A stretch of 64,000 bases of DNA from Polytrichum commune (taxonomy: Eukaryota > Streptophyta > Polytrichopsida > Polytrichales > Polytrichaceae). How positions within the stretch are numbered: the first letter of the stretch is position 1; every line of letters begins with the position of its first letter. Under the pieces are notes generated by a model. It was not told where the DNA came from. It saw nothing but the letters and a program-made list of their open reading frames with translations, and did not search any database. Positions 31,140-61,365 of this stretch are shown one piece after another. The position numbers were made by a program, and so were the translations under genes. The stretch is from contig OX485803.1 of NCBI GenBank assembly GCA_950295325.1, forward strand, positions 57,243,554-57,307,553, given 5' to 3'.

Positions 31140-32630
31140 ACGGGCCAACCACGGGCGAAAGCCCGTGACCAAGGAACACCGCCCAACACATGCGGGAAAA
31201 TTTCTATAACGAAAGCTTGACTAACCACAACACATGCACTACAGCAGGAGATATGCACTACAGAAGCCTGACTGTCCAAAGGCAGATCAACACAATTGAG
31301 AAACAATAAAGCGCTTGAGAGCAATTGTGCTCTAAAATCAGAGGTGAAATCATAGAAGCCTGTCGCCACTAAATTTTGGATAAAGAATGTTGCTACATCG
31401 CACCACGGGCGAAAGCCCGTGGCCAACCAGCACCACGCAAAACATGCAATTTTAATCCATAGCAATTGCCTAACTGTCCTAAACCATACCAACACAACTA
31501 GAAGCACAAATGCGCATGACAACGTATATGTAATACATAAATCATTTGTCCAATCACATAAGCCATAAAAGGCACTAAATATTGAACAAGGTAGAGGGAT
31601 AAATCTACGCCAGGACGAAAACCCGTCACAAACCAACACAATGTAAATCATGCACATTTTAAACCAACACAATGTAAATCACACCAAAGATATGTGCACA
31701 CAAAGAAGACACTACCATACACATGACTATATTTGTGTCCAAAAATTAATGGTTGAATCATAGATACCACAGTGGGCACATCATATTGCAGAGAGTTAAA
31801 ATATAAATGTACCACGGGCGAACGCCCGTAAACAACCGCTAATACACAAGCGTGTAAACCTATAATCATGAAGGTCCACCTAAGCACAATAGGAGTATGA
31901 ATCTTTAATCCTTTGCAATATCTTGTCATGGGGTTCTCTTTGAGTTGCAGCTTGTTGCTTGCGCTTTAGCTCTTCAACACGAAGCTTGTCATTCATCAGA
32001 ACTGTGGCATCACGAAGTTGCTTCACCCTTGTAGCAATGTAATCAGACATTGATGATGTAGCCTTGGGAGAGCCGCACTTCCAACATCATGAACTACTTC
32101 CAGAACCCGTAGGCTCACTAGGGCAAGCGGTTTGGAGAGCAAGTTGTCTCTTCGCCCGAGGGTGCGGCATTGTGGCCGGAGCTTCAACCACAACCGCAAT
32201 CGCGACATCACGTGATTGGAGCATATGTGCCTACAAGAACAACATAACGCAATATTATGAAAATCCCCAGGGATAAGAAACAAATGCAAATGGGCATTCA
32301 AATGGCAAATGAATTACCTTAGGACACGGTGACGACACTTTGGCGAAGTCCGCATCAGCATCTGCACCATGCTGTCGGGATGGTGGAGTGGAAATATAAT
32401 GCTTGGCACGTGTATGCAATGGGGAATGCTGTCAAGATAGTTGGATGTTATTGCATAGAAGAGGAACATTATGTGAAGCACCTTTGTTGGTAAGTGGAAA
32501 CGTTGTGCAAATTCAGAAACAATTTATGATAGCACAAGGAGTCCCAAACTAAAAACTACAATAACAACTAGGCTGACGGTAAACGCAACAACTAGTCACA
32601 GTGCTTGCCACGGGCGAACGCCCGTGGGAC
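31140..32630. repeat. Array/cluster of CCACGGGCG palindromes with ~200-250 bp spacing
   Basis: Short palindromes (arm CACGGGCG, centre AA, then CGCCCGTG) recur near 31,152, 31,401, 31,613 (decayed), 31,812 and 32,606. They are followed by similar text such as CCAACCA-CAC plus a variable spacer. The first two carry one mismatch in the right arm (AGCCCGTG). A related perfect palindrome lies inside the coding exon at 35,209-35,230. The long minus-strand frame through 30,932-31,672 is not protein-like and I do not treat it as a gene. Confidence 0.7.
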
Positions 32631-32834
32631 AATGACAGATGAACAACCAGTGATGCAAAGCAGTATAGTCGCATTAGATATATTCATGTACATATGACTG
32701 TGCCGATACAACAACATTACATAACTTAGGATAAAAAACCAAAACAAATTCATGCATAGTGTGAGTTCCTCATTAGTCCAATATGCAGTACAAATTGAAA
32801 ATATGTACACTTCGCCAGAACTTCCTTTGGCTGG

Positions 32835-33617
32835 CTACATTGGCATTTGCGCCGCTGGAATTCTACGATCCGTAGTCACTTCTCTATGTCTAGCCAACGC
32901 ATTCTTATATATCTGCGAATTTGGTAACTCTAGATTGAAGGGTCCCTGGCCTGATGGATAAGGGTTGCTCCCTACAAAATCTGGAACATAAACTTGTGAA
33001 GTCAAAAGGTTCTGCAAGTAATTATGGAGAGTATCCAAGCTCTGGTTTGACAGAAAAGGGGGGGGATTAATGTAACTCCCTGAAGGGTTTGCTATGCACT
33101 TGTAAGGGGAGTCATCAACAAGCAATGTGGTTCTATGAGTGGGTGGCTTCGAATGCGGCAGGGGATGCATCCGACTCCACTCAAAAAATGCGCAGAGGTC
33201 CTTGATGAAGAAGCTCGACTCAGCATTCACGGGACTGGGTAAACTCTTTCCGCGCTCATCGGCCAAAACTTGACACATCTCCTGGCCGAATACATACTCA
33301 GGCTGCCTACAACCTTTGAAGAAGTATTGGACAATTGGCTTGAGATTCTTCAGAAGCTTGGAGGACCAGATGACAACATGGAAGTTTGAAAGCACAAAGC
33401 GCAAGAACCGTCCCAATCCCTTCCTGGGAATGACGGCACTATAAGGGAGAAATAGTGGAGCCACTTCCCCACTTATTAACGGGCTATGTTGTGCATCAAG
33501 TGCCTTCCTGGTGTTGACATTGTCGCACTTTGCGTTCCTCACCAGAATCCCGTTCACATCCAGCACTAACCATATCTTCTCTCTCCGGTGAACAACTGTA
33601 CTTGGAGAGGTGGGGAT
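32835..33617 (-). CDS. HAD/FCP1-like domain exon of gene B2
   Basis: The exon starts after the acceptor CATCGCCAG with IPTSPSTVVHRREKIW, then LVLDVNGILV (motif I), VVIWSSKLLKN (motif II) and TTLLVDDSPYKC (motif IV). FCP1/NIF-type phosphatases normally use DxDxT/V; here the second Asp is Asn (DVNG), as in gene A. The domain would remove phosphate from protein substrates, but the Asn makes activity uncertain. It ends with TAG at 32,835-32,837 after AAQMPM. No internal stop or frameshift is present in this exon. Confidence 0.7.
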   Translation of the reverse strand: MPTSPSTVVHRREKIWLVLDVNGILVRNAKCDNVNTRKALDAQHSPLISGEVAPLFLPYSAVIPRKGLGRFLRFVLSNFHVVIWSSKLLKNLKPIVQYFFKGCRQPEYVFGQEMCQVLADERGKSLPSPVNAESSFFIKDLCAFFEWSRMHPLPHSKPPTHRTTLLVDDSPYKCIANPSGSYINPPPFLSNQSLDTLHNYLQNLLTSQVYVPDFVGSNPYPSGQGPFNLELPNSQIYKNALARHREVTTDRRIPAAQMPM

Positions 33618-33761
33618 CTGGCGATGACAAAATCGAAAGTCATTCTAATGGATTCTCATCTAACGAAACAATATTATGGTTAGATATAAGTATAGCATAC
33701 ATAAGAGGGCAAAGTAGCTACGCAATCAATTAGTTAGGCGAAATCTAGCAGAATCCCGTAC

Positions 33762-33793
33762 CGTCACTGGCACTTGATCCTCCAATGAGCGAC
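33762..33793 (-). CDS. 32-nt micro-exon of gene B2
   Basis: Bounded by acceptor TTGTCTCAG and donor G|GTACGG. Its 32 nt turn the phase-1 end of the linker exon (GAA G) into a phase-0 junction with the HAD exon (ATC CCC), giving GRSLEDQVPVT. The exact phase match is the evidence. Confidence 0.6.
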
Positions 33794-35208
33794 CTGAGAC
33801 AAAATCCACAAACAAAGTTCATGAGTACCTAGGCAGAAATCATAGTGTAGACCTTTACTTGAATGAAATGTAAGCCAACCTCTATGAAGGTAAATATTAT
33901 AGCATACCTTCAGCTCGAGGGCCCGGTGAATTTGAGGCAGCGTCGGGACGGACAGGGGAACTCGCACGATGATCACGAGGGCTTGAGGACCCAGCAGCTC
34001 CAACATGGACTTCACGGACGGGAGATTCATGTGCTCCGCTAATGTCAATAACCTCCAGCGTAGAGTCAACAACACTCTGAGCTTGCCTAGCAGCGGCTCC
34101 CTGACCTTGACCTCGTCCTGGACGTTCTGGTGGGGCATCGAAGAATGTCCACCTCTTTCGCATTTTCTTCAACGAAGCAGCATGGAGGATATGCTTGACC
34201 TTCACAGCTGCACAAAACGCTAGCGTGGAGAGATACGCAAACATCTTGTGATAGTCATAGGACTTGTACATGTTGCTCAGGTTCAAGCGCACATTCTCCG
34301 GAACCTCCGACAAATACTTGTCCACGAAAGGCGCAAAATGGACCTTGTCCTTCTCATCTGACTCCTTGCCCTTGCCCTTGTCCTTGTCGGATGCGTTCGG
34401 TGGAGGTCTTGCCGCAAAAAGGGGGTGAGGATCATCAGCGAAGCTTAGTTTCACCCTGCTGTACCCAGGCTTGCCGTAGTCCTCGTCCTCCGAGTCGTCT
34501 GTCATATAATCGGCAAACGTTCCCCGAACACGATATGGAACAGGGTCTTTCACCTTAACCCGCACATCCATATCAACACGTCTCTGGGGCATATCATCAT
34601 CGCTGTCCAGGCAAATGACCTCTGTCCGGATGACCGTCTTTTTTTCTCCTGAAGCCGAAGCAGCTGCAGGTTCCTCCTCAACCGCGACTGCAGAGGGCTC
34701 CACATTTGGACGCGCTTGTCCTAGGACCTCTAGAACGGCTGCAGCAACCTCCTCCACAGGTGAGGAAACGTTCAAATCTGATCTCTCCCCACTCACCAAT
34801 TGGGTATCCATGATAGTATCAATGATAGTATCGATTACATCATCAACATTGTCAACCTCACCTTCATGAACAGCGCCAGTCTCGCCCTCGTCATCGCGGC
34901 TAGATTGTCTTATATCCTCCGAAGAGCGAGATGCTTCTCCAGCCCTAGGAGCTCGCAGAGATTTTCGTCGGATAGCCTTAACCTTCTTTCGAGCAACCGG
35001 CTTCGATGTAAACCTTGGAGCATGTATCTCCTGTTCCCGAGTATCACTTGGCGTTTGCTCTTCTCCGATTTCCTCATGCTCCCGACTTTGTCGGGAAGCC
35101 TCAAACAGCTAAAATCCGCGCCCCGGAGTTGGCGGGATACCAGATGTATATGATGACCCAGGGGGCTGAAGGCTCCTCTCTGAGGGACCTCCCTCTCCCT
35201 CAACAGGC

Positions 35209-35230
35209 CCCACGGGCGATCGCCCGTGGG
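35209..35230. repeat. Perfect 22-bp palindrome inside the coding exon of gene B2
   Basis: Arm CCCACGGGCG, central AT, then the exact reverse complement. On the minus strand it is translated as part of PSHGRSPVGPV. The arm is the same as in the repeats of 31.1-32.6 kb. Confidence 0.9.
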
Positions 35231-35644: not shown

Positions 35645-36273
35645 CTGCAAAAATAAGATAAAATAAATTTAGAAATGGCGGACATATACGTAATTCATGG
35701 TCATTGTTGGAAAAATGAATATGAGTACATAATAAGGATAAACACTATATTCGTTAAATTGAGACTTTCTCTAGTCTCAAATTAATATATGGATCAAACA
35801 ACATGAAGATGCCTGAAACTATATTGTCAACAATCTCAAATATATTAAATGTTCTAATATCCCACACCTATGATGTGCGGACATAAGCACATATGGTAGA
35901 GCACTCAACACCAATTTCATCAACAAAAACACATTGGGTAGAGCACTCCAAACAAGTTTCACCCAAAAATATATATATAATGATTTCTATTATTAGCATG
36001 CTCCATAGAATATAGACATTGCAACATACAAAGTGCATGTAATAAATGCATATTTTTTCAATGGACAATTTAGTCCCAAACTTAATAAAAAAATGAACTT
36101 CACATTTGTATTGAAATATAGTAAATGGATATTCATCCAACTCCAAAACAATATAGTATTCGTAAGTTCTACCCAAACTCTGCCCCAATTTTGAAGAGCA
36201 CACATATGAGTAATATATGTTTGTAGAATTACTGTTTACACTATAATCATGCTAACACAATCCTACCAACTTC
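35645..36273. other. Non-coding AT-rich spacer or intron
   Basis: AT-rich, no frames of note. It separates the stop of the DUF7869-like gene from the first recognised exon of gene B2 and must contain at least the 3' part of the intron upstream of that exon (TTATTTTTGCAG acceptor). Confidence 0.5.
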
Positions 36274-39200
36274 TCATTCAACGTGGGTTGCTTCTTCTGC
36301 GATCCGAGCAAGGTTGTCTTTTGCAAAAGTTATGTACTTTTGAGGGATGGACACTGATCCACTATGATTTTTCCGTGGTTTCCATGCTATGAATATGGAA
36401 TCTGTATCTACCCAAGATGGACCGTGCTCAGAATCCACCTTCCACCGAAAGTTAGGGTTTGTATCCCAGCCTGTATAATGCCGAATCACATCTTCATTCC
36501 TTGCCGTCGGTCGGTAGTACTCCACTTGTATTTGTCGAAAATGAGGGCTGGAAGTTACAAAATTGGGTTTGGACAAAGCTCTTGCCACCCACACTGGCTT
36601 CACATATGTCTCGTCTCCAGGACGCAAAATGAGCATATATCCTTCATGACAATCCACTGCAATGCGGAAAGATGGTGGCGGACGACTACTAGCAGGCCCC
36701 ACGTAATGGTCGTCCACATCAAACTCCTCTCGAACCTCTCCATTTTCCAAAAGACTAGCCTCTGAAGCTTGTACATCGACTCGTGTTTGTGGCCAAAATC
36801 CATGCCTCAAAGTATGAGGGCTATCTTGGTGGAGGTCTACCAAGGCGGCACGAACACGTGTCCAATAATGTATCCAACTCCCATAACGATGCCAACATGA
36901 TCCGCCAACATCCGCTATCTTCAAACTCTCCCAATATTGTATAAAGCCTGATATACCTTTCAAAATATCCTCCAAATTCTTCATGGCTATTGGCTTACAA
37001 GGGCTAGGCTCCCCATCCGGTAACATGGTCTTCCCATCCGCATCCACGCGCCACACAAGAAGACCCTCCGGCGGGCTCCAGTCTTGTGTCGTGCACAACA
37101 ACTTGTATTGCATGGCCGGGACACCATCGTCACGCATGTAGAACCGGAATTGTTGTGCCTTCGTATGCCCGATCAATCGGTGAGCTCCACTTCGAATATA
37201 AGGTTCTATAAATGCTTTGAAGTCTGGCACCTCCTCAATCATATGGGGGATGACGGGAACGTTCTCCAAATCCATGTACGACTTCATCAATAATGGGATT
37301 GTAGGAAAATCCTCCTCCCGCAACTTCATGCTCCACCGCCCAAAAGATGCATCAATATCATCGTGCGTGTGGCCTACCAATAGGAAGGACACAAAAACCT
37401 CCTTGAAAATGCCTTTTGCAACCAACAACGATCAATATGCAAATACATATCTGCTTTTATTGTCCTTGGCACAATTGTCCAATTGGACACGCAAAGTTGG
37501 AGGCAACTTCTTGGCAATCACAGGTTCATTGGGTGGCTCGGGCAACGAATGCAAGCATACATCTTTTCCATCCAACACCGCTTCATATAAAGGTGTTGAA
37601 CCCGTGTTCTCAAATAACAATCCTGAAGAATAGGCTGGTGGTTTCTCTAAATCACGTAAAAGCCTTGCAAATGATCCTATCGTGTGGTTTGAATCCGCTG
37701 GATACAAATCAATAGCATAATGAGCAAACTTGACATCACCGTGTCCATGTGCAATCATTCCTGCAATGCCAACCCAACGTGATTAGCATCTATGTATGAA
37801 TAAACCATTATGAAGGAATCCATGTTCTCCAGTACATCACGGAATAAAAAACCACAACATTTAGGGTATGTCATGACATTGTTTCGAAGTTCACCTGTAA
37901 CCGATACAGGCAACTTAAAAAACCCATCCGTGGCCTTGATTCGATTTGCAAAACATGGGGAGGCTGTTTTGGCATGGTCCATTTTGTCATGGATGACCGT
38001 AAGAACCTCCAAGGGCGTGGAGATGGACAAAGCTCTATTTGTGTAGTAATCATTACGGTGTGCCTCTTGCATGTTTACGTGCTTGAAATAGTTCAATTGA
38101 TGCGCTGCATATGACTCGGTACCCATCGTGTGTGCATCCCGAAGGCGCTTCAACTTCTCGCAATTAGAGCACCTGGCAAATTTGTCCCCTCGTCTTTTTG
38201 TAATGTATTCGCTAAAGTTTTGTTTCTTGATTGCACTTAATTTTGACAATAAAATTGGCTCCAACCCAATCTTCTCGCCAACTGCATTAACGTCCAACAA
38301 TATGTCTTTCCATTTTGTGCCTGTGGGAAGAACTTTCTCCACAACCTTTTCACCGGTTGTGAGTGTGCGTGTTTTGTGCGGCATTGCATCAGCAAGGGGG
38401 ACAATGATGGTTGCTAGAGTTGCCATTGCTTGCCTTGTTGCTTCCCTAGGTTTCTTTAAACCCACGTTCCCATGGTGACGGGACCGGCGGCCTTCCTTGG
38501 CATAAGCAGCTTGTCTATAGAAGTCCGCCTTCGACACACCGTAAATGGTGTACCATGCCTTACAACACACGTCTATGCTTTCAATGGTGATTACCTTGCG
38601 ACCCGTCCCATTCACATGTATTGCCCTATGGACATCAAGTTTTTTTGTGGATCTTAGACGAAAATCTCCAAGCCACATTTCTTCACGGATGGCCTTCAAT
38701 TTATCCCTTGGAAACAATTGGCAACAATAATGCACACAACAATCCTTTGTGGCAACTTCTCTTATGGACTCCTCCCCAAGCAGCCTTTGACGTTTACAAT
38801 CAGTTGCAGATGGAGAAGGACGTGCCACAGTATCGTACTTTCTTTGACCCTTGCGTGGCCGCATGTTTGATTGCATTTCCTTTTCGAGTTGCATGTGTCG
38901 TTGCTCATGTTCACGCAAGCTAACTCCATCAGTCGTGACATTCCTCAATGGCCACCTGCGGAGGGAGAACCTATGAGTGGGATCCACCTCAGAAGGAACG
39001 AGTGACTCCAATATGACAATCCCAACGTCCTCGGTGCCAAGCGGATTTTGATCAATGCAATCTTGTGGATGGGTGTTACGACAGATACCCTCCGCCACAA
39101 CAACCCCATTGTCATTAAGAAGTAACACATCCAAATTCACCCATGAAGCTCTTGAAAGCACGGCACACTCTGGAATGGGACAGTCCGGTACGGAACGCGA

Positions 39201-39338
39201 AGGTATATCGAAATGCTCTTCATCTGAACTCTCATCCATAGTAGCCTCCCCGACAATGTCTAGCTCTTCCTCAGATGCAGATGGCCAAGTGGCCATGTCT
39301 TCTCCAGACGAATACCCTCTTCCAGTATACCCATCCAT
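36274..39338 (-). pseudogene. DUF7869-like gene (RNase H-like/transposase-related), two lesions
   Basis: One long frame (~1,020 codons). The start chosen is MDGYTGRGYSS, just after an acceptor-like TGTGTGTAG. Landmarks in order: an acidic N-terminus; a Cys-rich CCVHYCC segment; a KFARCSNCEKLK finger-like motif; VIHDKMDHAKTASP; LRVQLDNCAKDNK; SFLLVGHTHDDIDASFGR. The last three are the conserved acidic/His blocks of DUF7869-type proteins, which resemble DDE/RNase H nucleases of mobile elements; that function is inferred. Two lesions: one base lost from an A run at ~37,756 (LALQE/MIAHGHGD), and TGA at 37,432-37,434 within VFAY-stop-SLLVAKG. Otherwise intact, so recently disabled. It ends with TGA after EEATHVE. 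Confidence 0.7.
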
Positions 39339-39522
39339 TTTGCCTACACACATGAACATGGAACCTTGTAAAGAATTGACAAAAACTATAGGGTCCAATA
39401 GAAAAACACAGAAACCTTATCATAACACATGTTGTATGAATATTATATCGATGGGTTCCAAAAAGATGGAGCGCACAACAGTTTATTCAGGATCCGTCTA
39501 TGCACATCCCCATTGTGTGCAT

Positions 39523-40180
39523 GAGGGTGGGTTTGGGTCGAGCAACCCAAACCTCGTGATAGGATGGGCCTGCTAATCCAGGCCCAACCCGTGACAGGGG
39601 TGGGTTTGGGTCGCTCGACCCAAACCTCGTGACAGGATGGGCCTGGTAATCCAGACCCAACCCTTGATAGGGGTGGGTTTGGGTTGCTCGACCCAAACCT
39701 CGTGACAGGATGGGCCTGCTAATCCAGGCCCAACCCCTGACAGGGGTGGGTTTGGGTCGCTCGCCCCAAACCTCACAATGGAGGTGTGTTTGGGTCGTGC
39801 GACCCAAACCTCATGACAGGATGGGCCTGGCAATCCAGGCCCAGCGCGTGATAGCGGTGGGTTTGGGTCGCTCGACCCAAACCTCATAATGGAGGTGGGT
39901 TTGGGTCGAGCGACCCAAACCTCGTGACAGGATGGGCCTGCTAATCCAGGCCCAACCCGTGACAGGGGTGGGTTTGGGTCGCTCGACCCAAACCTCACAA
40001 TGGAGGTGTGTTTGGGTCGAGCGACCCAAACCTCGTTACAGGATGGGCCTGCTAATCCAGGCCCAGCCCGTGAGAGGGGGTGGGTTTGGGTCAAGCGACC
40101 CAAACCTCGTGACAGGATGGGCCTGCTAATCCAGGCCCAGCCCATGATAGGGGTGGGTTTGGGTCGAGCGACCCAAACAT
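39523..40180. repeat. 73-bp tandem array of the GTTTGGGTCG palindrome
   Basis: Eleven copies of a 22-bp palindrome (arm GTTTGGGTCG, two central bases, reverse-complement arm) start at 39,531, 39,604, 39,677, 39,750, 39,788, 39,861, 39,899, 39,972, 40,010, 40,084 and 40,157. Spacings are 73-74 or 38 bp. The 73-bp units carry a second hairpin, GGGCCTG...CAGGCCC. Central bases are CT, AG or, once, TG. The array lies just upstream of the DUF7869-like gene. Its open frames (WVARPKP, GRATQTH) are repeat artefacts. Confidence 0.95.
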
Positions 40181-40876
40181 TCCGCAAATTCCGCCTTAAA
40201 TTGCGGTAATCTTCCATATTCAGCTACGTGGATACTAATTGGAAGAATTCAGGCCATGCATGGCTGTTGTAATTAGCTACTCATCAACGGATGCATACAC
40301 GAACCTTGCACTCCACCACTACTTGAGAGAGCTTGCAACCATTTCAGAATGGAGAGATGAGAAAAAAGGAGCAAAGTTTGGGGGGTTTGGTACTTTATAC
40401 TACCCGCCTCCGCCTTGGCCTTCCTCTTTGGATCCCTTTCCCGCCCAAACGTAAACCCTAAACCTAAGTTCAAACCTTCTGACAGAATTTCCCGCTTCTT
40501 GTTGGTAATAGAGCATCCATATTTAGCTTGCCTCTTCGTGGCGCCAACCATCAAATGACCTTGGACAACTAACCTCCTAATTCCGCTATTAAATAACTAC
40601 ACAAAATATGATGTGTGGATTTGATTATATGTAGTGTTGTTACCACCAGTGTCCGAAAAGTTTTTGAAGTTATTGAGGTTAATTGCCTACCTCTTTAAAA
40701 GGGCATAGGCTATTTCCCTCATGGCATAGGTTGCATCCTACAATATCAAATTTTTGTAAGTTGAAAACCTTTTGAGTTTTTAAGTTACCTGCCAATTGCC
40801 TTTAAAACTAATTTTTAGTAGGTTAAAATCCTTCATATCTTTTAATGTTGTAGGCTTTAAATTCAAAATTTGAGTA
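40181..40876. other. No gene recognised; possible promoter side of the DUF7869-like gene
   Basis: Mixed DNA with short frames and no domain. No convincing promoter element for either strand was found. Confidence 0.4.
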
Positions 40877-40948
40877 CTAAGTGGTATCCTTGGCAGGAAT
40901 TGAACCTGGCTAAGCCCTTCACCACGTTTGAAGGCCAAGGATTAACCA
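40877..40948 (-). mobile_element. tRNA-like / SINE head
   Basis: On the minus strand GGTTCAATTCCTGCC resembles the RNA polymerase III B box and sits ~35 bases after a GTTGGTTAA-CCTTGG stretch like an A box. No cloverleaf with intact acceptor stem was seen. It is best read as a tRNA-derived SINE head, not a tRNA gene. Confidence 0.4.
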
Positions 40949-42085: not shown

Positions 42086-42106
42086 TAGTTGTTCAGGGTT
42101 GCTTCC

Positions 42107-43490: not shown

Positions 43491-43495
43491 TTAGG

Positions 43496-51366: not shown

Positions 51367-51855
51367 GTAATACACTGAGACCTCCTCAGTTTGGGTCGCT
51401 CGACCCAAACTCCTGGTCTATTGTCTTGTTGCCGTGGTCGTGTCCCCCCTAGCTAGGAGGAACTGCCCCCACCCCGTCCATCCGCTCTCGCATCCCTTCA
51501 GCCCCCCCCCCCGACGATCACTAACGTCGCCCGTCCCACGATTTTACTCGAACTTGGAGGCGTGCACACAATTTTGTAGATGTTGAATTAGGATAGTTTG
51601 AACGGATCGTTCAACGCGGCTTCGCACCCCTAGGCATTTTGTACATAGAGCATTGCAAACAATAAAATTATTATTTTGTGCCCTTATGTTTGTTTTCGTG
51701 TTCAAATGTATATTTTTTCCTCTTGCCCCCTCTTGCATTTGTATGGCCGCCTATGCATAGTGGTTCTTGTATTTTTCACAGAAAATATTGTATTCACTTT
51801 AAGTGGACATAGCATGACATAGTCTTCCCCCGCCTTATGTCGCTCGTCTCCACAG
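51367..51855 (+). other. Gene A intron 3 (contains one palindrome)
   Basis: Bounded by GTAATA and TCTCCACAG, phase 0 on both sides. The palindrome lies at 51,389-51,410 (centre CT). Pseudogene D has the same intron (from 13,739) with only the left arm recognisable at that point. Confidence 0.7.
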
Positions 51856-52668
51856 GGATCGGAGCATAGCGTCGCGGCTCCCCGCCGGGCCTCTCCAAGA
51901 AGCGAGGAAGGTAGCGCGATGGTCCCCCCCATTTTACCCGTTCCACCTTTGCCGCCTAAGACCCGGTTCCTGGTGTTAGACCTCAACGGGGTCCTCGTCC
52001 AATGCGTTCATTGCCCGAGGACCCCCACGGTGGCCTTTTGCAAGCCCGAGGACGCGAATTACGACGGGCCGCCCACGTTCATAAAGAGCAAGCTAGTTCA
52101 CCTCCGCCCGTGGCTTCGGACCTTCCTCCAGATCACCCAACAACGATGGTGGGTGGTCGTGTGGAGCTCCATGAAGGCCGAGAACACCAATGCAGTCGTG
52201 GAGTTCATCTTCAAGGGCATCGAGCCCCCCTGCATGGTCCTAGCACAGGAAGCCTGTAGAATATTGTACACACCGGACGGCAAAGTCGTCAAAAAACCAA
52301 ACAACCCCGCTTCCCCCCAATACCTCAAGGTCTTGAAGCCCATTTTTTGGGACCAGCGTCCGTCATTGATAGGTGTCCCCTACGACGTCCGTCCCACCCG
52401 GGAGAACACGCTCATGGTGGACGACAGCGCCGCAAAGAACATGTTGAACCCGACGGCCAACTTAATAGTTTGCCCTACGTGGACGGTCGAGAAGGTCCGG
52501 GACCGATTTTTGTTAGACCTTAGTGAATACCTCCAGGCGCTCAGGGGAAGCGGACTACCTGTAAACAATTTTGTTAGGAATAATCCGATAGGCGAGAGAT
52601 ACTTGGATCCACGAGACCATTTGTACAGAGAGTTGTTCTCTCACGCGAAATTTAACAAGCTCATTTGA
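51856..52668 (+). CDS. Gene A exon 4: HAD/FCP1-like phosphatase domain
   Basis: Starts in phase 0 after TCTCCACAG. Motif I reads FLVLDLNGVLVQC, with Asn in place of the usual second Asp of DxDx(T/V). HLRPWLRTFL follows, then motif II WWVVVWSSMKAEN and motif IV NTLMVDDSAAKN, close to the FCP1/NIF layout of protein Ser/Thr phosphatases. No stop or frameshift interrupts it; the frame closes with TGA after KFNKLI (52,666-52,668). It is ~30% alike to the HAD exon of B2 and nearly identical in motif I to pseudogene D. Catalysis is uncertain because of the Asn. How it joins the next exon is unresolved. Confidence 0.8.
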   Translation, partial: GSEHSVAAPRRASPRSEEGSAMVPPILPVPPLPPKTRFLVLDLNGVLVQCVHCPRTPTVAFCKPEDANYDGPPTFIKSKLVHLRPWLRTFLQITQQRWWVVVWSSMKAENTNAVVEFIFKGIEPPCMVLAQEACRILYTPDGKVVKKPNNPASPQYLKVLKPIFWDQRPSLIGVPYDVRPTRENTLMVDDSAAKNMLNPTANLIVCPTWTVEKVRDRFLLDLSEYLQALRGSGLPVNNFVRNNPIGERYLDPRDHLYRELFSHAKFNKLI

Positions 52669-52803
52669 GGCAGCACGTGTGTGTGTGTGTGTGTATGCGC
52701 CCGCCCACTTTGTGTAATATATGCTTCATATGTATCTTGATTTTCACGCGCTCTAGCAAACCCTCTTCCTTTGGGTTTTGTTTCGTTTCCTTTTTTGCGC
52801 CAG

Positions 52804-53594
52804 CGTTTGGAGCCCTCGATTGACATCGTCAGCGAGTCAGAGTTGGGGAGCTTCTTCTACGAGACCGTTTACGACGCCGCGTCAACCATTGACTACTCCA
52901 AGGAGCCTATTGACGCCAACGTCGTCGATAGCCCCCCACCCAAGCAAATCTTACGGCGATCTCCGTCCCCGTCGCCGCTCAAGGGCATAAATCGCAAATG
53001 CGTCCGGACATCCCCCTCTCGGCCCGGCGGAAGTATTACACCTCAACGGCGGCTGCGGATGGACGCACGGCCAACGAAGAGTGGAACCCTTCCTATTCCT
53101 TTGCGGGACGCCTTGCCCCTCCTTGCCAACTCCGACGGGAACGCCCCCGGTGACAAGGTGAACCCCCCCCCCTCTCTAAAACATGGTTAACCGCGCATTA
53201 CAATCATTTTGCACTTAAAAAATGATCGTGTGACACGTTTGGGTCTTCCTCCCTAAACTAACACATGTGGTCTTGCAATGACGCGTTGCAGGTTGCTCCC
53301 ACCCGTAAACCTATGCGGTCTAGTGCGTCCATCGAGTTCGAGCGTATGTACGCCATGACCAGAAATGCGAGACAATCCACTTCATCGTATTCGAATTCTT
53401 CGACGTATATTTCGGGCGGCCGACGGACTCCAAAATGTCTTATGGATGGTGGTCACCCCAAGAATGGCTATAGTCGCGGGGCGGAGATTTTCAGGAATGT
53501 TGAAGCAATGCGAGCAAAAGAAAAAGAGGCAAAAGAAAAAGAGGCAAAAGAAAAAAAAGCAAAAGAAAAAGAGGCAATCTCCGAGGCTAGATAG
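52804..53594 (+). CDS. Gene A tail exons (52,804-53,157 and 53,292-53,594)
   Basis: The first block follows the acceptor TTTGCGCCAG and reads PSIDIVSESELGSFFYETVY, then DAASTIDYSKEPIDANVVDS. The same text survives in pseudogene D (~14,670-14,775), which argues for real coding. Donor AAG|GTGAAC (53,157/53,158) and acceptor GCGTTGCAG join it in phase 0 to VAPTRKPMRSSASIEFERMY. That block ends in a KEKEA repeat (15-bp units, ~53,510-53,575) and TAG. The intron between holds a decayed palindrome (53,237). The tail may extend the HAD protein or belong to another isoform, because the HAD exon has its own TGA with no clear donor before it. Confidence 0.6.
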
Positions 53595-53724
53595 GCCATA
53601 GTATGCGTAGGGTTTTGGGCCATAGGCAACATCATTTTGGGTCGCACTATCCAATGTATGTGTGGTGTTAGCATGCTATGCATTTTACATGCCATACTTT
53701 GTATGTTTTTTTTGCAATAATATA

Positions 53725-54025
53725 AGTGTCACATGATTTCCCCTTCAATATGGTCCAAGGTTTGGATTGCCCTAACTAAACCATCACAAATATGAGTTTG
53801 GAATATTTTGTATGTTATATTATATTGGTTCACATAGTTCCCCTTCAATATGGTCTAAGGGTTCGGAGTGCCCTACCTAAAACATATTCATACAAGATCT
53901 CATATTTTGTGTGCGATAATATGAATGTTTTAAGATTTCCCCTTCAATTTGGCCTAAGGTTTGGATTGCTCATCCTAAACAATCCCAAATATGAGTTATT
54001 AATGGGGTTCTTGTTCTAAATACCC
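53725..54025. repeat. Three ~95-bp degenerate tandem units with decayed palindromes
   Basis: Each unit has TTTCCCCTTCAAT-TGG-CTAAGG, then a diverged palindrome (GTTTGGATTG...CTAACTAAAC and variants at ~53,760, 53,858 and 53,951), then an AAATATGAG-like word. Single relatives lie at 17.4 and 42.9 kb. This looks like an older generation of the GTTTGGGTCG repeat. Confidence 0.6.
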
Positions 54026-54335
54026 GACACAAAGTGTTCGCATCTTACAACTTTCTCCAATATGTGTTCCATTTATCCTTGTTCTTATTTATGTGAATGT
54101 CTCAAAATGCCCAAAAAGTCTCAATTTAACGAATATAGTGTTGATACAAAATGTGAATTCTTATATGTGCGACGATATGAGCTTTGTTTCCTCCGCAAAC
54201 ATTCAGGAAAATTGTCCCTTCCAGACAGGAAGGCTTGATGATGTCAATGTACGTCTGCATCTTGAGCTCCCCCTTGAAAATGGATCTTGACGCCTCACTG
54301 GCATAAGCCCTCTTCACTGAATATCGCTTGTAGTC

Positions 54336-55877
54336 TCAGGGGTCATGCATATCCAACATCTTTCTCCCGCCGCAAATCCGTACTGCTACCTCTTCGGTTG
54401 ACTCCCCTTTTTTGGGGAAAATGCAAGTCGTTACCCTCAAAGAACTATTCCGGTAAAAGCAGCCCTGCGAAGTAAGTTTCTCCTCACTGCATCCTCTGTA
54501 TAAGGCTTCACAAAACCTCACATTGTACGGGAGATACGCCTTCAACACATTGTGTATAAAGTGTCGATCAGGATACTCCGACACGACAGTCCACAATTGT
54601 GGGGCTTGCAGTATTCCAGGGAGGTCCCGACGAAGACCTTGCAGAGTGCCTTCAACAATCTCCTTCACGCGGAAGCCACTGTCCACTCCGTACCTAACTC
54701 CTGGAAGAAACCTCGTGTCCATGAAAGCATGGGTTATTGGAGCAAACGTTTGTCCCTCAGCACTAACCCGAAACTTGTTGTCTATAGACAACACTGTGTG
54801 CTCCTCCGACACTTCCCTAACCCAAGTGCTAAGTATATTGTTCACTCCCTCCTTAAATCGTGCAGGAATCGGCACTTTCTTCTTGGCGGGATTCAAAGCG
54901 GCAGCTAGGTAATCCGCTCCCAGCAAGTCCAGTAGTCTTTCCCTCTGCAGCCGTCCAAAATTGTTCGTCTCCTTCCACGCATGCCATTCGTTGCGGTCAA
55001 TAGTGTTCTTCTGATCAGCTTGAATAACATAACGTGGGGGGGGGTCTAAACATTCCGCCATCGCAATATATGTTTTGTTCTTCTTCTTCCTATTGTATGC
55101 CCACTCACCAATTGTCTTCAAGGTATGGCGGGGATACTCTTCACCTTCTCTGGTGACCAGACATTGATCCGCTGCCATGTCAAGCTCCACCTCTGTCAAG
55201 CCGCGAGTGTGCTTCATGTCGTTCTTCACAACACTTTTGGGTTTGAAACCCTTCTTCTCCTTCGCCAGCGCCAGGGTTTTCTTGTCTATATACTCGCCTA
55301 TCTCAAAATCCATGAAAATTCGCTCCCACTTTCTCCAGAGTTCGTCACCCAACGTCGGGAAGATGTGTTTCATTATCAAATTGGATTCCTTCTCCACACG
55401 GAAGGTCCACATGAGGCACGTGGTGAATTCCTTCCATTTCCTGAACGCTTCACTGTTGGTTGCACTCTCCCGGATTGTTCGAGGCGGCTTTCCTCTTCGA
55501 ATCCACGTCTTCCTTGCGTGCTGAATGCACTCCACCCATGTTGGATAGTGCTTTCTATATTCACTATCCAAGTTTAGAACACCAAAAAGATGGAACAAAG
55601 GGTCATCATCACCTTCAGGAGCCCATACCACATTGCATGGCCATCGAGAAAAAAAATTCTTCACCTCCGGAGTGCTCTCTGGGTCATTGACGAACTCCAG
55701 GCAGGCAGCCAACGTGTGCTGTCCATTAACCACATGGAATCTCTTGTCTTCGACCTCCTCAAAACTTCCTGGCTTCGAACTTCTATCTGCTGGAACGATG
55801 GTCAGAAAGTTCGGATGGTTCTTCTGCATTAACGCAAAATTGAAGAGCCACGTCTTCATCTCTCTCAAATGGGACAA
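54336..55877 (-). CDS. Gene C: intron-less paralog of the DGQH-type region of gene A
   Basis: A single uninterrupted minus-strand frame of ~513 codons, in-frame back to ~55,925 (YRSPLTARKIALSHLREMKT), so the 5' end may be truncated; the first ATG gives MKTWLFNFALM. RFHVVNGQHTLAACLEFVND corresponds to A's WLIDGQHSVEASKKLQ and recalls the DGQHR/ParB-like loop. Downstream blocks match gene A exons 1-2 in order, but without introns, which suggests retroposition or intron loss. It ends GGRKMLDMHDP-TGA with no linker or HAD part. It has no internal stop, making it the best-preserved copy of this domain. Function unknown; a role in DNA or chromatin binding is only a guess. Confidence 0.7.
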   Translation of the reverse strand: MSHLREMKTWLFNFALMQKNHPNFLTIVPADRSSKPGSFEEVEDKRFHVVNGQHTLAACLEFVNDPESTPEVKNFFSRWPCNVVWAPEGDDDPLFHLFGVLNLDSEYRKHYPTWVECIQHARKTWIRRGKPPRTIRESATNSEAFRKWKEFTTCLMWTFRVEKESNLIMKHIFPTLGDELWRKWERIFMDFEIGEYIDKKTLALAKEKKGFKPKSVVKNDMKHTRGLTEVELDMAADQCLVTREGEEYPRHTLKTIGEWAYNRKKKNKTYIAMAECLDPPPRYVIQADQKNTIDRNEWHAWKETNNFGRLQRERLLDLLGADYLAAALNPAKKKVPIPARFKEGVNNILSTWVREVSEEHTVLSIDNKFRVSAEGQTFAPITHAFMDTRFLPGVRYGVDSGFRVKEIVEGTLQGLRRDLPGILQAPQLWTVVSEYPDRHFIHNVLKAYLPYNVRFCEALYRGCSEEKLTSQGCFYRNSSLRVTTCIFPKKGESTEEVAVRICGGRKMLDMHDP

Positions 55878-55925
55878 AGCTATTTTGCGAGCGGTGAGCG
55901 GTGAGCGGTAACTTCCGAGATATTT

Positions 55926-56328
55926 TGATTAAAATGTTATTTTAAGCAGTAAGTTTATGGTATTTTTGGACTAAAATTTTTTTTAGGATTTTTTTTTCTA
56001 AACTTAGTGAACAGTGGGACCTATGACCGTGGACAATTAAGGGCTCTGATACAGGAAAAAATGTTATTGTATCAGTGAAAAATATGGTTTAGGGTGTTTA
56101 ATTGAACATTTGGAAGTAATATCAGTAATAAATATGGGTTTGTCTCAAGTCAAACACATATTGTTTTAGTATAATGAGAATTAGTGGTACTCTAAAAGGG
56201 TCACGCAACTTTGGGAAAGAAAAATACATGTGGTGCGTCAAATGTCTTGTAGTGGCCCTTTTAGTCTCACTACATCATCATTATAACATATCTTGCATAC
56301 ATATGTTTCTTTAAAGAAACAGAAAACT
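55926..56328. other. No gene recognised
   Basis: AT-rich spacer between gene C and the SWIM fragment. An inverted CTAAAAGGG/CCCTTTTAG pair (~56,192 and ~56,259) is present. Nothing else was seen. Confidence 0.45.
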
Positions 56329-57064
56329 CTAAGAATCAAGGTACTTCAACAAACCACCCTCCAAAACTCGCTTCACTTCGTTGAAGCTAAAACTAGCTGC
56401 ATGAATGAACGTGTCTGAATCCGAGTCCAAATCACACACTATAGTAAACAAATAATACAAATGCTTACAGTTGGCCCATTGACCCCGTTTTCCAATTGCT
56501 TTAGTCGCCATCTCCTTGAAGTTAGGACAAGTGCATGCTGGCAGCTACGAAATCGTCAAGTAGTATTGCTGAACCTTTGGGGGCGTGCCGGAATCCAATG
56601 AGACGATGCATCCTAAGGCAGGGGCTGGAAGCATGCACAATTTGTGCACTTTGGCTTTCAGTGATAGGGTTGAGGCACAATTATTGGCGTGTTTTGTTGA
56701 CGGGGCCTTCTTGTTGCGCCTAATCAATTTCCTTGAATGCCGGGTGGGAAACTCATCCGGATAATGGCGGAATCAATGTAGTTGAACTATAAAAAATGAA
56801 CTATACATGAAATATAGAGGCAAGTATAGACTTACCAACTCGAGTTTCGAGTTTCCTGTTTTTGGTATGTTTCTCCAAGGATTGCATCCAATGCGTGTGG
56901 AGAGGTTGACACAGGTCATCAGATAGGAACATGGAACTACAACCAATAGAGGAAGAACAGGAGCACAGAGGATCACGCGAACCATCAATGACAGAGAGTG
57001 AGCATCGCAACAATCCCAATAAGAGCGGATCAGACGAGGAGACAAAAGAATACTCAATTTGCAC
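56329..57064 (-). pseudogene. SWIM zinc-finger protein fragment
   Basis: Minus-strand reading: an exon ending HTHWMQSLEKHTKNRKLETRV at a GTAAGT donor (~56,830), then an acceptor-like TTTTTTATAG. Next come PDEFPTRHSRKLIRRNKKAP, APALGCIVSLDSGTPPKVQQ and YYLTIS, an in-frame TAG (56,545-56,547), and PACTCPNFKEMATKAIGKRG followed by QWANCKHLYYLF. The last part is a complete SWIM motif, C-x-C-x19-C-x-H. SWIM domains bind DNA or proteins and are common in MULE-related proteins. The single nonsense codon just before the finger suggests a young pseudogene. The 28.4-kb locus is a more decayed relative. Confidence 0.6.
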
Positions 57065-57229
57065 AGTTTGTTTGGGTCACAGATAATATGCAATAAGGGC
57101 AGATACACGTTTAGATTTTTGCAAAAATGGCATGTGAAATTGAGTTCTCTGAATATGGATGAAAATAAGTCACACTATAGATTGAATGGTAGGTTGAAAG
57201 GATTTCAGGTTAGGGGGAGTTGCTTTGAT

Positions 57230-58490
57230 GAATGTTTTGTTATGTCACATTATGGGGTTCTCGGTTCCAAAAGGCGGTAGGGGGTGGATGTCGCGCACCT
57301 CTCCATAAGGAGTGCCCGCAACACTATGGGCACAGAGGGGACCCCGGAGTGACACCCGGGACTTGTGACGCCATTGGTGAGAGGGACCAAGTGATCCTAA
57401 TGTGGGTGAGGGCCCCGGGCGTTTAGAACACCTCCCACCCACGAAGACTAGGAGTCATGAGGGTAAAGCCATAAGCTATGAGTAGCTTATGGCGTCCCAA
57501 TTCTAGAACGCTCAAGAACACCTCAATCTGAGGTGTGAGCTAGGAGATATAGCACTTTGAGTGGGATGATGTCCCGGGACAGCGCCCTGGAACAGCAGTG
57601 GCCTGGGAGTGGCTCCCGGGACTGCAAAGGTTTAAACAGGCATAACTTCCTTGGTACTTGTCCGAATGGGGCAAGTGAGGTGTCCATCGGCATCAATGTG
57701 AAACGTAGATGACGATAGAGTGGTTGGTTGTTAGATTCAAAGACTGCACATGGAAGTTATGAAGGTCTGAAGCTGCAGGGAGGCTTCTAGACCCAGCGGC
57801 TAAGGGAAAATGTCTACTTGGCCCCAACTCTTGGTAGAGAGACAAAAGGGATGTTGACGGTGGGGGAGGGGCCCCGCCAAAAGTCCTAGAGGCTTATATG
57901 GGTGAGGCGGCTTTGCCGACCGACCCCCCCGGAGCATACTTGGCAATGTGCTCCGGGTGGTTGTAGTGTTGTCCTACCAACACTATGACCAACTAAGGAG
58001 TGGACTTCCATGGATGGAAGTCCACCTTAGCCATGGGTTACCTACTAAGGGGAAGAGTCCCGAATGCATGTGTAGGAGGGTTTGGTGACCAAATATGAGA
58101 TTGAAGGTCCGCGGTTTTGAAAGCTAACCATGCATGTGCGTGGGATGTGCAGGTTAGCGCTCGGGACACTTGCTAGGGTTGGAAAGTGATTGAGCTAAGT
58201 GAAGAAAAGCCAGCAAGGGTCGCGACAGTGGAGGTGTGAGGTAGGAGATATGCCAATTTCAGTGGGGCGCTCGCGCAGGACCAAGCCCTAGACATCATTG
58301 ACCCGGGAATGGCTCCAAGTGGAGGATGTTTAGGTTGTGCTTGAGAGAAGATAAGGTATTTAGTGATTTTGATTAGAGGCTGAAAATATTTGGTTGAAAT
58401 TGAGTGTGAAATTTGGAATGTGGGGGGAGGTCTTGGAACCAATAGGGTGGAGGACGCCAATACTAATCAGGTCCCGTTCAACACATACCT
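57230..58490. repeat. Repeat-derived region related to the centre of the 59-61 kb palindrome
   Basis: 57,590-57,770 (AGCAGTGG-CTGGGAGTGG, GGCATAACTTCC, CGAATGGGGCAAGTGAGGTG, GTTAGATT, GGAAGTTATGAAGGTCTGAAG) matches, in order, both sides of 59,045 and 60,322. The rest is GC-rich, with CCCGGGAC-type words. Short frames are not protein-like. Confidence 0.6.
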
Positions 58491-58491
58491 T

Positions 58492-58513
58492 ACCCTCTCG
58501 GAGCCGAGAGGGT
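58492..58513. repeat. Perfect 22-bp palindrome, ACCCTCTCGG arm
   Basis: Arm ACCCTCTCGG, centre AG, exact reverse-complement arm. A less perfect relative (CCTTCTCGG-GG-CCGAGAGCG) lies ~55 bases on. It differs from the neighbouring GGTGTCTCGG array in the outer arm, but has the same TCGG-NN-CCGA core. Confidence 0.9.
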
Positions 58514-58619
58514 CCCCGAAACAAAGATTGAACCCAACCCCCTACCCCTTCTCGGGGCCGAGAGCGTCATTACATGACACAACTTAGCCCCTAATATCTT
58601 CGGACCTTCATAACTTCCA

Positions 58620-61365
58620 CTTGCAAAAAAACCCAACCCACCCACTAATCTACCACCTATTCCCCCTCAAAATCAGACTTAGCAAAAATCAACCCATATA
58701 CATGAGCATCCTCACCCCCTCTCCTATAGTGTTTCGGTGCCGAAACACCCTCAAATGAGAAAAAATAAACCCAACCCACCCACTAATCTACCACCTGTTC
58801 CCCCTCAAAATGAGACTTAGCAAAAATCAACCCATATACATGAGCATCCTCACCCCCTCTCCTATGATGTATCGGTGCCGATACACCCTCAAATGAGAAA
58901 AAAAAAAACCCAACCCACCCACTAATCTACCACCAATCCCCCCTCAAAATGAGACTTAGATGTCAATGCACACCTCACTTGCCCCATTCAAGCAAGTACT
59001 GAGAAAGTTATGCCCCTTCAAACCTTAGCAGTCTTGGGAGCCACTCCCCGGCCACTGCTAAGGTTTGAAGAGGCATAACTTTCTGAGTACTTGCTTGAAT
59101 GGAACAACTAAGGTGTGCATTGCCATCTACGTTGAATGTAAATAACAATAGAGCGGTTGTTTGTTAGATTTGGACAACGCAAGTGGAAGTTATGAAGGTC
59201 CAAAGATATTAGGGGGTTTGTTTTTTTTCATTTGAGTGGGTGAGGATGCTCATGTATATGGGTTGATTTTTGCTAAGTCTCATTTTGAGGGGGAATTGGT
59301 GGTAGATTAGTGGGTGGGTTGGGGTTTTTTTTTTTTTTTTTTTTTTCTGATTTGAGGGTGTATTGGCAAATCAACACATATACATGAGCATCCTCACCCC
59401 CTCTCAAATGGTGTATCGGTGCCGATACCCCCTCAAATGAAAAAAAAAAACCCCCAAACCCACCCACTAATGTACCATCAATTCCCCTTCAAAATGATAC
59501 TTAGCACAAATCAACCCATATACATGAGCATCCTCACCCCCTCTCAAATGGTGTATCGGTGCCGATACCCCCTCAAATGAAAAAAAAAAAAAACCCAAAC
59601 CCACCCACTAATGTACCCTCAAATCCCTTTCAAAATGAGACTTAGCAAAAATCAACCCATCTACATGAGCATCCTCACCCCCTCTCCTATGGTGTCTCGG
59701 TACCGAGACACCCTCAAATGAGAAAAAAAAACCCCAACCCACCCACTAATGTACCATCAATTCCCCCTCAAAATGAGACTTAGCAAAAATCAACCCATAT
59801 ACATGAGCATCCTCACCCCCTCTCAAATGGTGTCTCGGTACCGAGACACCCTCAAATGAGAAAAAAAAAACCCCAACCCACCCACTAATGTACCATCAAT
59901 TCCCTTTCAAAATGAGACTTAGCAAAAATCAACCCATCTACATGAGCATCCTCACCCTCTCTCCTATGGTGTCTCGGTACCGAGACACCCTCAAATGAGA
60001 AAAAAAAAACCCCAACCCACCCACTAATGTACCATCAATTCCCCCTCAAAATGAGACTTAGCAAAAATCAACCCATATACATGAGCATCCTCAACCCCTC
60101 TCAAATGGTGTCTCGGTACCGAGACACCCTCAAATGAGAAAAAAAAAAACCCCTAATATCTTCAGACCTTCATAACTTCCACTTAAAATGTCCAAATCTA
60201 ACAAAACACCACTCTATTGTTATCTAAATTCAACGGAGATGGCAATGCACACCATAATTGTCACATTCAAGCAAGTACTCAGAAACTTATGCCTCTTCAA
60301 ACCTTAGCAGTGGCCCGGGAGTGGCTCCCAAGACTTCTAAGGTTTGAAGGGGCATAACGTTTTTAATACTTGCTTGAATGGGGCAAGTGAGGTGTGCATT
60401 GCCATCTACGTTGAATTTACATAACAATAGAGTGGTATTTTGTTAGATTTGGACATTTTAAGTGGAAGTTATGAAGGTATGAAGATATTAGGGGTTTTTT
60501 TTTTTTCTCATTTGAGGGTGTCTCGGTACCAAGACACCATTTGAGAGGGGGTGAGGATGCTCATGTATATGGGTTGGTTTTTGCTAAGTCTCATTTTGAG
60601 GGGGAATTGATGGTACATTAGTGGGTGGGTTGGGGTTTTTTTTTTTCTCATTTGAGGGTGTCTCGGTACCGAGACACCATAGGAGAGGGGGTGAGGATGC
60701 TCATGTAGATGGGTTGATTTTCGCTAAGTCTCATTTTGAAAGGGAATTGATGGTACATTAGTGGGTGGGTTGGGGTTTTTTTTTTCTCATTTGAGGGTGT
60801 CTCGGTACCGAGACACCATTTGAGAGGGGGTGAGGATGCTCATGTATATGGGTTGATTTTTGCTAAGTCTCATTTTGAGGGGGAATTGATGGTACATTAG
60901 TGGGTGGGTTGGGGTTTTTTTTTCTCATTTGAGGGTGTCTCGGTACCGAGACACCATAGGAGAGGGGGTGAGGATGCTCATGTATAATGGCTTGATTTTT
61001 GCTAAGTCTCATTTGGAAGAGGAATTGGTGGTGCATTAGTGGGTGGGTTGGGGTTTTTTTTTTCTCATTTGAGGGTGTCTCGATACCGAGACACCATAGG
61101 AGAGGGGGTGAGGATGCTCATGTATATGAGTTGATTTTTGCTAAGTATCATTTTAAAGGGGAATTGGTGGTACATTAGTGGGTGGGTTGGGGTTTTTTTT
61201 TCTCATTTGAGGGTGTCTCGGTACCGAGAGACCATATGGGATGGGGTGAGGATGCTCATGTATATGGGTTGAATGTTTTGTAAGTCTGATTTTGAGGGGG
61301 AACTGGTGGTAGATTAGTGGGTGGGGTTGGGGTTTTTTTTTCATTTGAGTGTGTTTCTAGTACTA
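58620..61365. repeat. Tandem array of ~139-bp units folded into a ~2-kb inverted repeat
   Basis: Units contain CCCAACCCACCCACTAAT, ATGAGACTTAGCAAAAATCA and TACATGAGCATCCTCACC, then a palindrome and an A run. Left-arm palindromes start at 58,729, 58,866, 59,410, 59,550, 59,691, 59,829, 59,968 and 60,107. In the right arm units run in the opposite direction, with palindromes at 60,517, 60,657, 60,796, 60,934, 61,074 and 61,212. Pairs are symmetric about ~60,322. A smaller palindrome is centred near 59,045. No coding. Confidence 0.95.

Follow-up and report, generated by a model that had tools for sequence, protein, structure and literature searches.

Palindromes and transposons of the window

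We analysed a 64,000-nucleotide stretch of the Polytrichum commune genome (contig OX485803.1; hereafter, the window), in which short palindromes lie beside and within the genes of three nested or adjacent transposons, termed here element I, element II and the M element. The palindromes have a common design of about 22 bp: two arms of ~10 bp face each other across a 2-bp middle (10-NN-10), and CG or CGG often adjoins the centre. An earlier note, made from the letters of this DNA, had described such a class, and the description was borne out. The window contains 32 perfect 10-NN-10 palindromes that are not of low complexity; 10 dinucleotide shuffles had 0.2 on average. Exact copies of one version, the G arm (GTTTGGGTCG-NN-CGACCCAAAC), make up 22 of them (39604-51410) and the M arm (GGTGTCTCGG) makes up seven (59691-60955); the single ones have the arm CCCACGGGCG (at 35209), the arm ACCCTCTCGG (termed the A arm, at 58492) and an unrelated arm (at 58002). 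About 30 copies of the G arm had been noticed before, and we found 34 in element I at ≤4 mismatches. In the 408-Mb genome, the G arm has 9,231 exact copies, and five further arm patterns have 4,313 in sum (A, 1,998; T, 1,147; CCCACGGGYG, 853; M, 292; V, 23). The reversed-pattern control gave 0 for each of these six. The palindromes are confirmed as real and genome-wide. The assembly is that of a plant by its TTTAGGG telomeres (at both ends of C1), its 19 matches to the RuBisCO small subunit and its seven large contigs.

The palindromes are not free elements. They reside in large DNA transposons with a common plan, in which a transposase gene and a partner gene point away from palindrome arrays. 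Element I, which holds the G palindromes, is a DNA transposon with inverted ends, a target duplication and an empty site (Table 1). Its ends read AACACTA. The empty site lies in locus L028 (C1:33.08 Mb), a near-identical copy of gene B2 (97.7-98.0% nucleotide identity) that is uninterrupted where the window has 18.4 kb extra. A 25-mer of the end repeat has 333 (+) and 343 (-) copies in the genome; among the 91 end-repeat places listed on C1 there are 35 neighbouring +/- pairs less than 60 kb apart, and 21 of the 35 span 14-19 kb. Ten other elements, selected because both of their ends are exact, all have a 4-bp target duplication (11/11 with element I). Moreover, 77 of the 100 first-listed G sites fall inside three elements bounded by the end repeat (in two of these both ends are exact; the third has a single end).

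The divergent pairing of the presumed transposase gene, which encodes a DUF7869 protein, and gene A is also not restricted to the window. Among the matches listed, which cover only those scored out of 1,039 gene-A and 1,491 DUF7869 candidates, 47 of 146 gene-A matches were <20 kb from one of 150 DUF7869 matches (mean of 2.4 and maximum of 6 in 200 shuffles), and 46 of these 47 pairs were divergent. Three other G loci (L018, L019 and L020) possess the same gene A with G sites in matching positions, namely an array ~4-5 kb upstream, the leader, intron 1, intron 2 and the coding exon. No mention of DUF7869 was found in the literature searched; as far as the available part of its description goes, Lanisha (PMC12730594) is one candidate for comparison with the DUF7869 transposon superfamily.

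Element I is nested, apparently within an intron, in the B2 gene of element II. Element II, which has the arm CCCACGGGCG, therefore appears in the window in two parts, at 31.1-35.7 and 54.1-55.9 kb (31662-35740 and 54143-55871). The copies of (C)CCACGGGCG reported at 31.1-35.2 kb are only partly as described: that at 35209 is perfect, and those at 31.1-32.6 kb are imperfect (3-4 mismatches at 31148, 31402 and 31811; 1 at 32607). All seven exact M-arm copies in the window have the centre TA and lie in a 139-bp satellite, contrary to the variable centre proposed for this arm. Some units of this satellite differ from others symmetrically, a change in one arm being mirrored in the other (TTTCGG/CCGAAA, TATCGG/CCGATA and TCTCGG/CCGAGA). 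The arm versions had been thought to dominate separate genes; instead, they mark the three transposons.

Table 1. Positions of the transposons, genes and palindromes in the window
Feature	Position	Strand	Remarks
Element I, 18.4-kb DNA transposon	35741..54142		all 22 exact G palindromes; missing from collinear B2 locus L028
Target-site duplication GATA	left 35737..35740, right 54143-54146		empty site in L028
Left terminal inverted repeat	35741..35768	+	28 bp, perfect
Right terminal inverted repeat	54115..54142	-	
DUF7869 gene, presumed transposase	36277..39416	-	PF25273, E 2.9e-22 in frame 36277-37431
G array 5' of DUF7869 gene	39531..40178		11 sites at ≤1 mismatch; 38/73/74-bp spacing
G palindromes 5' of gene A	44553..45309		
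Gene A	45346..51375	+	limits approximate; exons taken from open frames
Five G palindromes, gene A intron 1	46685..46866		40-bp units; fifth with 1 mismatch
Two G palindromes, gene A intron 2	48336..48393		
Two G palindromes in coding exon	50997..51087		read as FGSxDPN; arms invariant in three copies
Last exact G palindrome	51389..51410		2,732 bp inside right end
Four degenerate G-like sites near right end	53237, 53635, 53760, 53959 (53237..53980)		4-5 mismatches
One degenerate G-like site near left end	35932		6 mismatches
NIF (NLI-interacting-factor-like phosphatase) open frame, element I	51823..52665	+	PF03031, E 1.7e-15
Gene B2 of element II	54339..55892	-	NGQHTLAAC motif and methyltransferase-like region; 96% identical to L028
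Element II palindromes, arm (C)CCACGGGCG	31148, 31402, 31811, 32607, 35209 (31148..35230)		same-arm array and intron sites in L028, L054
NIF-like frame of element II	32838..33644	-	33.8% identical to element I NIF frame
M element, left boundary to last feature recognised	55872..61994	+	right end not found; same boundary at L017:1008, missing from L028
M-arm palindromes in 139-bp satellite	58728..61233		
Single ACCCTCTCGG-AG palindrome in M element	58492..58513		1,998 genome copies of arm
Methyltransferase-like frame of M element	61620..61994	+	34% identical to L027

Arm versions and their conservation

The design occurs in several arm versions, each bound to one locus type, as the earlier note had proposed. 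We counted eight arms, at ≤2 mismatches in 20, in groups of loci and in a random set of 14 loci of 5 kb (70 kb). The G arm occurred 119 times in the element-I loci, CCCACGGGCG 27 and CCCACGGGTG 29 times in their own groups, T 18 times, V 17 and 18 times, M 10 times and A 39 times. No site of any of the eight arms was found in the random 70 kb. Off-family counts had only three sources: CCCACGGGCG and TG, which are near-identical; a single A-arm site within the M element; and L017, a composite locus with G, M, A and K. Thus, the arm versions follow the element families, with counts close to block-diagonal.

We also examined six DUF7869 loci of other subfamilies with a palindrome finder that was ignorant of the arms. 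In four of the six, 10-NN-10 palindromes were present 5' of the gene, with the arms CCCACGGGTG (L021 and L024), TTTACGGACG (L025) and GGGTGAGGCA (L022); a further locus, L023, has 18 sites of the L022 arm at ≤2 mismatches. All four B2-type loci (L028, L052, L053 and L054) have CCCACGGGCG or CCCACGGGTG arrays, and in L052-L054 a palindrome lies in the intron after the motif exon. The M and A arms (GGTGTCTCGG and ACCCTCTCGG) and the arm of locus L063 (GGCATCTCGG) have the inner TCTCGG in common and differ in the outer four bases, as if the outer and inner half-site contacts evolve separately. In locus L059, K palindromes (CCCTGTGCGT-TA) lie upstream besides G palindromes, so that two codes are present in one element.

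For five unexamined ParB-methyltransferase genes, we predicted beforehand that a palindrome array with a 2-bp centre would lie in the 5 kb upstream. Three of the five loci passed, and none of the 14 random loci did at centre 2 (random locus L010 passes at centres 4 and 6). L063 has a new arm (GGCATCTCGG-AT), and L065 and L066 have the M arm with another centre (GTGTCTCGG-GA/TC). It should be mentioned that L066 lies near an already listed M-arm copy and is not wholly blind.

The arms are constrained at the DNA level. In three element copies of the coding exon, none of 40 arm columns varies, against 186 of 462 other alignable columns; in the centres, 2 of 4 columns vary. In four copies of homologous introns, the spacers barely align and the arms are intact or nearly so. 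In the arrays, arm mismatch is 4.2% (517/12,340) and spacer mismatch 20.7% (8,414/40,585), although the arm figure is biased low by the selection of sites at ≤3 mismatches. When random spacer words were treated by the same rule, only 4 of 1,334 controls over nine arrays matched the real motif in units and divergence. Half-changed CCCACGGGYG sites are nearly absent: mixed C/T sites number 2 among the 50 places listed (of 853). Among the four copies compared, copy number varies by gain and loss of tandem units.

The central dinucleotide is not free, as had been supposed. Of 120 G sites, with 12 different centres among them, 110 have AN or NT, and AA, TT or AT is present in 57 of 57 CCCACGGGYG sites. 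This pattern is consistent with a weakly specified centre that supplies an eleventh base of each half-site. At first, the centre was always pyrimidine-purine in the T, V, M and K loci (121/121); exceptions were found, and this was dropped as a general rule.

The partner gene and the candidate binding protein

Gene A of element I contains the segment LIDGQHSVEA (46368-46397) and a degenerate methyltransferase-like region (47740-48321); the window copy has an in-frame stop just ahead of the DGQH segment. A DGQH, NGQH or GNHR motif, presumably of ParB type, is encoded beside the G, CCCACGGGYG, T, V, A and K arrays in the versions LIDGQHS, VVNGQHT, IVDGQHS, PVDGQHV, VWEGNHR and IWDGNHR. Between families, the partner proteins have ~25-40% identity where likeness is detectable.

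A DUF7869 gene stands alongside the G, CCCACGGGYG, T and V partner genes, and a different transposase-like gene is found beside K. The K-type element (L059 and L062) has the same divergent plan, and its transposase-like gene is Pfam-silent, with an apparent resemblance to Mutator-like transposases. Because the partner gene is common to elements with different transposases, the ParB-like protein is the likeliest binder. We infer that it would bind the palindromes as a dimer, reading two half-sites of 10-11 bp over a weakly specified centre.

The carboxyl part of the partner protein resembles DNA N6-adenine methyltransferases, judging by sequence and structure models. The K-family protein of L062 matched the phage DNA methyltransferase family phrog_3008 at E 5e-5; the match to the ParB-like family phrog_1033 was weak (E 0.13). 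A sequence-profile search of solved structures gave nothing usable for the alignment A1 or for L062. In a fold search with the low-confidence B2 model, the 50 of 457 rows listed contain entries named as, or taken to be, methyltransferases.

Readings of the palindromes

With a confidence a little above even, we propose that the palindromes are recognition sites, one arm per family, for the self-encoded ParB-like/methyltransferase-like protein, which would act on expression. Each transposon family would encode a protein that combines a ParB-like domain with a degenerate DNA-methyltransferase-like one, and this protein would bind its own arm sequence 5' of the two divergent genes and in introns. 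Because intact sites lie in these places, binding most likely acts on expression. The bound protein would mark its own element and counter silencing (or auto-activate), in the manner of the VANC proteins considered below, and families would diverge by joint change of protein and site. By this analogy, the supposed outcome of binding is anti-silencing directed at the element itself; auto-activation would be closely related to it. Anti-silencing is favoured because of the placement of the sites, the self-encoded likely binder, the tandem turnover, the joint arm change, the sharing of G sites with an unrelated element and the parallel with VirB.

Several results weigh against this proposal. In the M part examined there is no ParB-like motif, only the methyltransferase-like frame. 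The partner gene has no Pfam match above the cut-off, only sub-threshold ones, and the ParB assignment rests on the short motif and its context. No DPPY-type motif is present in 10 partner segments; therefore, methyltransferase activity may be lost. The structure models are poor, with pLDDT of 35 (AlphaFold, partner amino half) and 52 (B2), and the best fold match of the B2 model was M1.HpyAVI at E 9.4e-3, with none at E ≤ 0.001 in the 50 of 457 rows. No palindrome family was found at the DUF7869 locus L026 or in the upstream test of L064; L067 has four degenerate K sites only, and two of the three passes of the prediction reuse the M arm. The specificity is not absolute, as G sites also occur in the K-type loci L001, L002, L017 and L059. 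In L022, the arms vary as much as the spacers (7.2% and 6.9%), and in L017 spacer words have a lower mean divergence than the arms (0.048 and 0.065) with fewer units. The centre rules have exceptions. Finally, a role at the ends is possible in view of the degenerate sites that lie close to the two ends of element I and persist in its deleted copies L057 and L058.

A more specific and more tentative idea, which we regard as possible but clearly doubtful, is a eukaryotic system of the parS type. A captured prokaryotic or phage-type ParB-methyltransferase would serve as a non-catalytic clamp that spreads from private 22-bp palindromes and keeps the copies unsilenced. Transposons with at least two kinds of transposase would have captured the protein, protein and address code would have diversified together, and several near-orthogonal protein/site pairs would exist in one genome. 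The likeness to ParB/parS and VirB lies in a ParB-like protein, a palindromic or inverted-repeat site and a dimer, which here is inferred (PMC10653881, PMC12704722). VirB, a ParB relative, can lift silencing by spreading from an inverted-repeat site, according to the available part of PMC10653881. However, those systems are bacterial and involve CTP binding, spreading and a helix-turn-helix, features that are at most conjectural here. The main text of a ParB survey (PMC12704722) has no word starting with 'plant' or 'transpos'.

Alternatively, the palindromes may serve transposition, with a part comparable to that of the subterminal TnpA sites in En/Spm: they would be bound by the transposase, or by an accessory protein through which the two ends of the element are paired. 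We consider this unlikely. En/Spm has multiple short subterminal motifs, and the element protein that binds them is also able to relieve silencing; as a CACTA element it has CACTA ends and a 3-bp duplication. In element I, by contrast, the intact sites are internal (the first exact G site is 3,863 bp from one end and the last 2,732 bp from the other) and those in subterminal positions are all degenerate, the ends read AACACTA, and the duplication is of 4 bp in all 11 elements read. Furthermore, the same site design occurs with a different transposase-like gene (L059/L062). On these two grounds pure end-binding had been set aside; degenerate sites at the ends were then found. In the window, four G-like sites with 4-5 mismatches are situated 0.2-0.9 kb inside the right end of element I and one with 6 mismatches ~0.2 kb inside the left, and L057 and L058 have no G site at ≤3 mismatches and four each at 4-5 mismatches. 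The background at ≤5 mismatches is one site in 70 kb of random loci and two in window positions 1-30000. These sites raise the standing of a role in transposition and lower that of both the expression reading and the parS-type one. That the sites are multiple, tandem and element-specific also fits transposition, as does the parallel divergence of the arms and the DUF7869 protein (28-66% identity for the compared exon). On the other side, the two deleted copies without sites at ≤3 mismatches retain both ends and the duplication, which counts against it if the deletions came first.

These deleted copies of element I, L057 (C1:11508323-11512010) and L058 (C1:42393117-42397980), have 4-bp duplications ATGT and CACT, read by eye. 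They are without the middle that bears the intact palindromes, and their left breakpoints are 35 bp apart (window 38665 and 38700). The degenerate sites that persist in them possibly form a weaker, separate site class.

That the sites belong to a host DNA-binding protein (activator, repressor or insulator) and were captured by the transposons seems to us rather improbable. The G arm does occur in an unrelated element (L059 and L001), but at least six clearly different arms of one geometry, each tied to one or few families, are hard to reconcile with a host protein. In L059 (C1:2153501-2160500) and L001 (C1:~438 kb), the G palindromes lie in a gap between frames of an unrelated transposase-like gene, which is apparently an intron.

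We give little credence to an RNA role, in which short hairpins in introns and leaders would affect splicing or serve as small-RNA precursors. Sites are common in introns and leaders; however, many lie upstream of genes, and the arms differ between families. A 10-bp stem with a 2-base loop is also a poor RNA hairpin.

Passive satellite units, whose symmetry would be a by-product of repeat homogenisation, are less credible still. Many copies do form tandem arrays whose number changes by gain and loss of units, and the L022 arms are no more conserved than the spacers. Nevertheless, the arms are fixed where homologous-intron spacers hardly align and within coding sequence, and the spacer-word controls argue in the same direction. 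The earlier note had envisaged that all copies might trace to ordinary satellite families: the copies can indeed be assigned to identifiable repeat families; these, however, are not inert satellites but transposons whose family-specific sites are conserved.

Mobile palindromic elements of the Rickettsia kind and recombinase crossover sites, both raised in that note and in keeping with the dispersed copies and the 2-bp centre, are the least probable, since the four compared copies vary by tandem-unit gain and loss with no single-palindrome insertion pattern, the sites move inside transposons with their own ends, one and the same element has several different centres, and no recombinase, serine recombinases included, is among the frames scanned. 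Rickettsia palindromic elements are short palindromes, some of them inside open frames; in contrast, the palindromes here are parts of transposons, and no solo insertion was seen in the four copies. Plain satellites, Rickettsia-like elements and serine-recombinase sites were set aside on this evidence.

Among known systems, the proposed recognition of each element by its own protein is closest to VANC anti-silencing of VANDAL (Mutator-like) transposons in Arabidopsis, in which the element protein and its motif evolve together, as described in the available parts of PMC5735166 and PMC10398659. There, according to the same part of PMC5735166, the introns of VANC21 and VANB21 and the region upstream of VANA21 carry family motifs in tandem, and the unrelated AT9TSD1 shares the VANC6 motif. 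The likeness thus comprises an element-encoded protein (a predicted binder here), short family-specific tandem motifs in noncoding parts, and sharing with an unrelated element. On the other hand, the VANC21 motif is a 9-base directional word, as that part gives it, and here it is a 22-bp palindrome. In addition, unlike VANDAL, the elements here have a DUF7869 or other transposase-like gene, a 4-bp duplication (G family) and a ParB/methyltransferase-like protein; no Mutator Pfam match, such as to the MURA transposase, was found in the frames scanned. In the VANC system, expression goes along with a loss of cytosine methylation.

The protein type has been met in algal transposons. In the available part of PMC12477816, the 21.5-kb Sola1-1_Ec32 of Ectocarpus has a ParB-methyltransferase gene opposite the transposase, similar proteins are cited in green and red algae, and it is suggested that they bind and modify their own element. 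Both systems have the partner encoded opposite the transposase within an element of ~20 kb, with own-element binding suggested. The available part of that report gives no target site; here there are candidate sites, several families, a plant host and a degenerate-looking methyltransferase part. No report of target sites for ParB-methyltransferase transposon proteins was found in the literature searched, outside which most subscription papers lay. The protein type is therefore already known, and the candidate target code and its family-by-family divergence appear to be new.

The candidate cognate sites are sharply bounded and number thousands, in eight or more arm versions, and make binding, specificity switching and an effect on silencing testable. 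If the proposal is true, it would be a second case of sequence-specific transposon self-recognition beside VANC, with a palindromic and not a directional code. The palindrome tags offer a test of how transposons recognise and control their own copies, and are a possible source of orthogonal DNA-binding pairs.

Some further features of these elements were observed. The M element is joined to the same B2 gene near the B2 5' part. The B2 genes of the window and of L028 (L028:2822-4591) are without the intron and palindrome that are present in their 64-74% relatives L052, L053 and L054; this difference is apparently a precise intron loss. B2-type genes pair divergently with a 692-aa DUF7869 class at ~17 kb; examples read from the lists are C2:3661522/C2:3679358 and C1:48454249/C1:48471271. 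An AT-rich 26-bp tandem repeat lies between gene A exons (window 49402-49872). NIF-like phosphatase frames also occur at random locus L014 (L014:1907-2746); they may represent a third element gene, possibly acting on RNA polymerase II. A further inverted motif, ACACTAAATA / TATTTAGTGT, is also dispersed; it has odd-length centres and is found at window positions 19026, 19488 and 41607 and at 4109 and 4392 of L016; it has the appearance of a separate small element.

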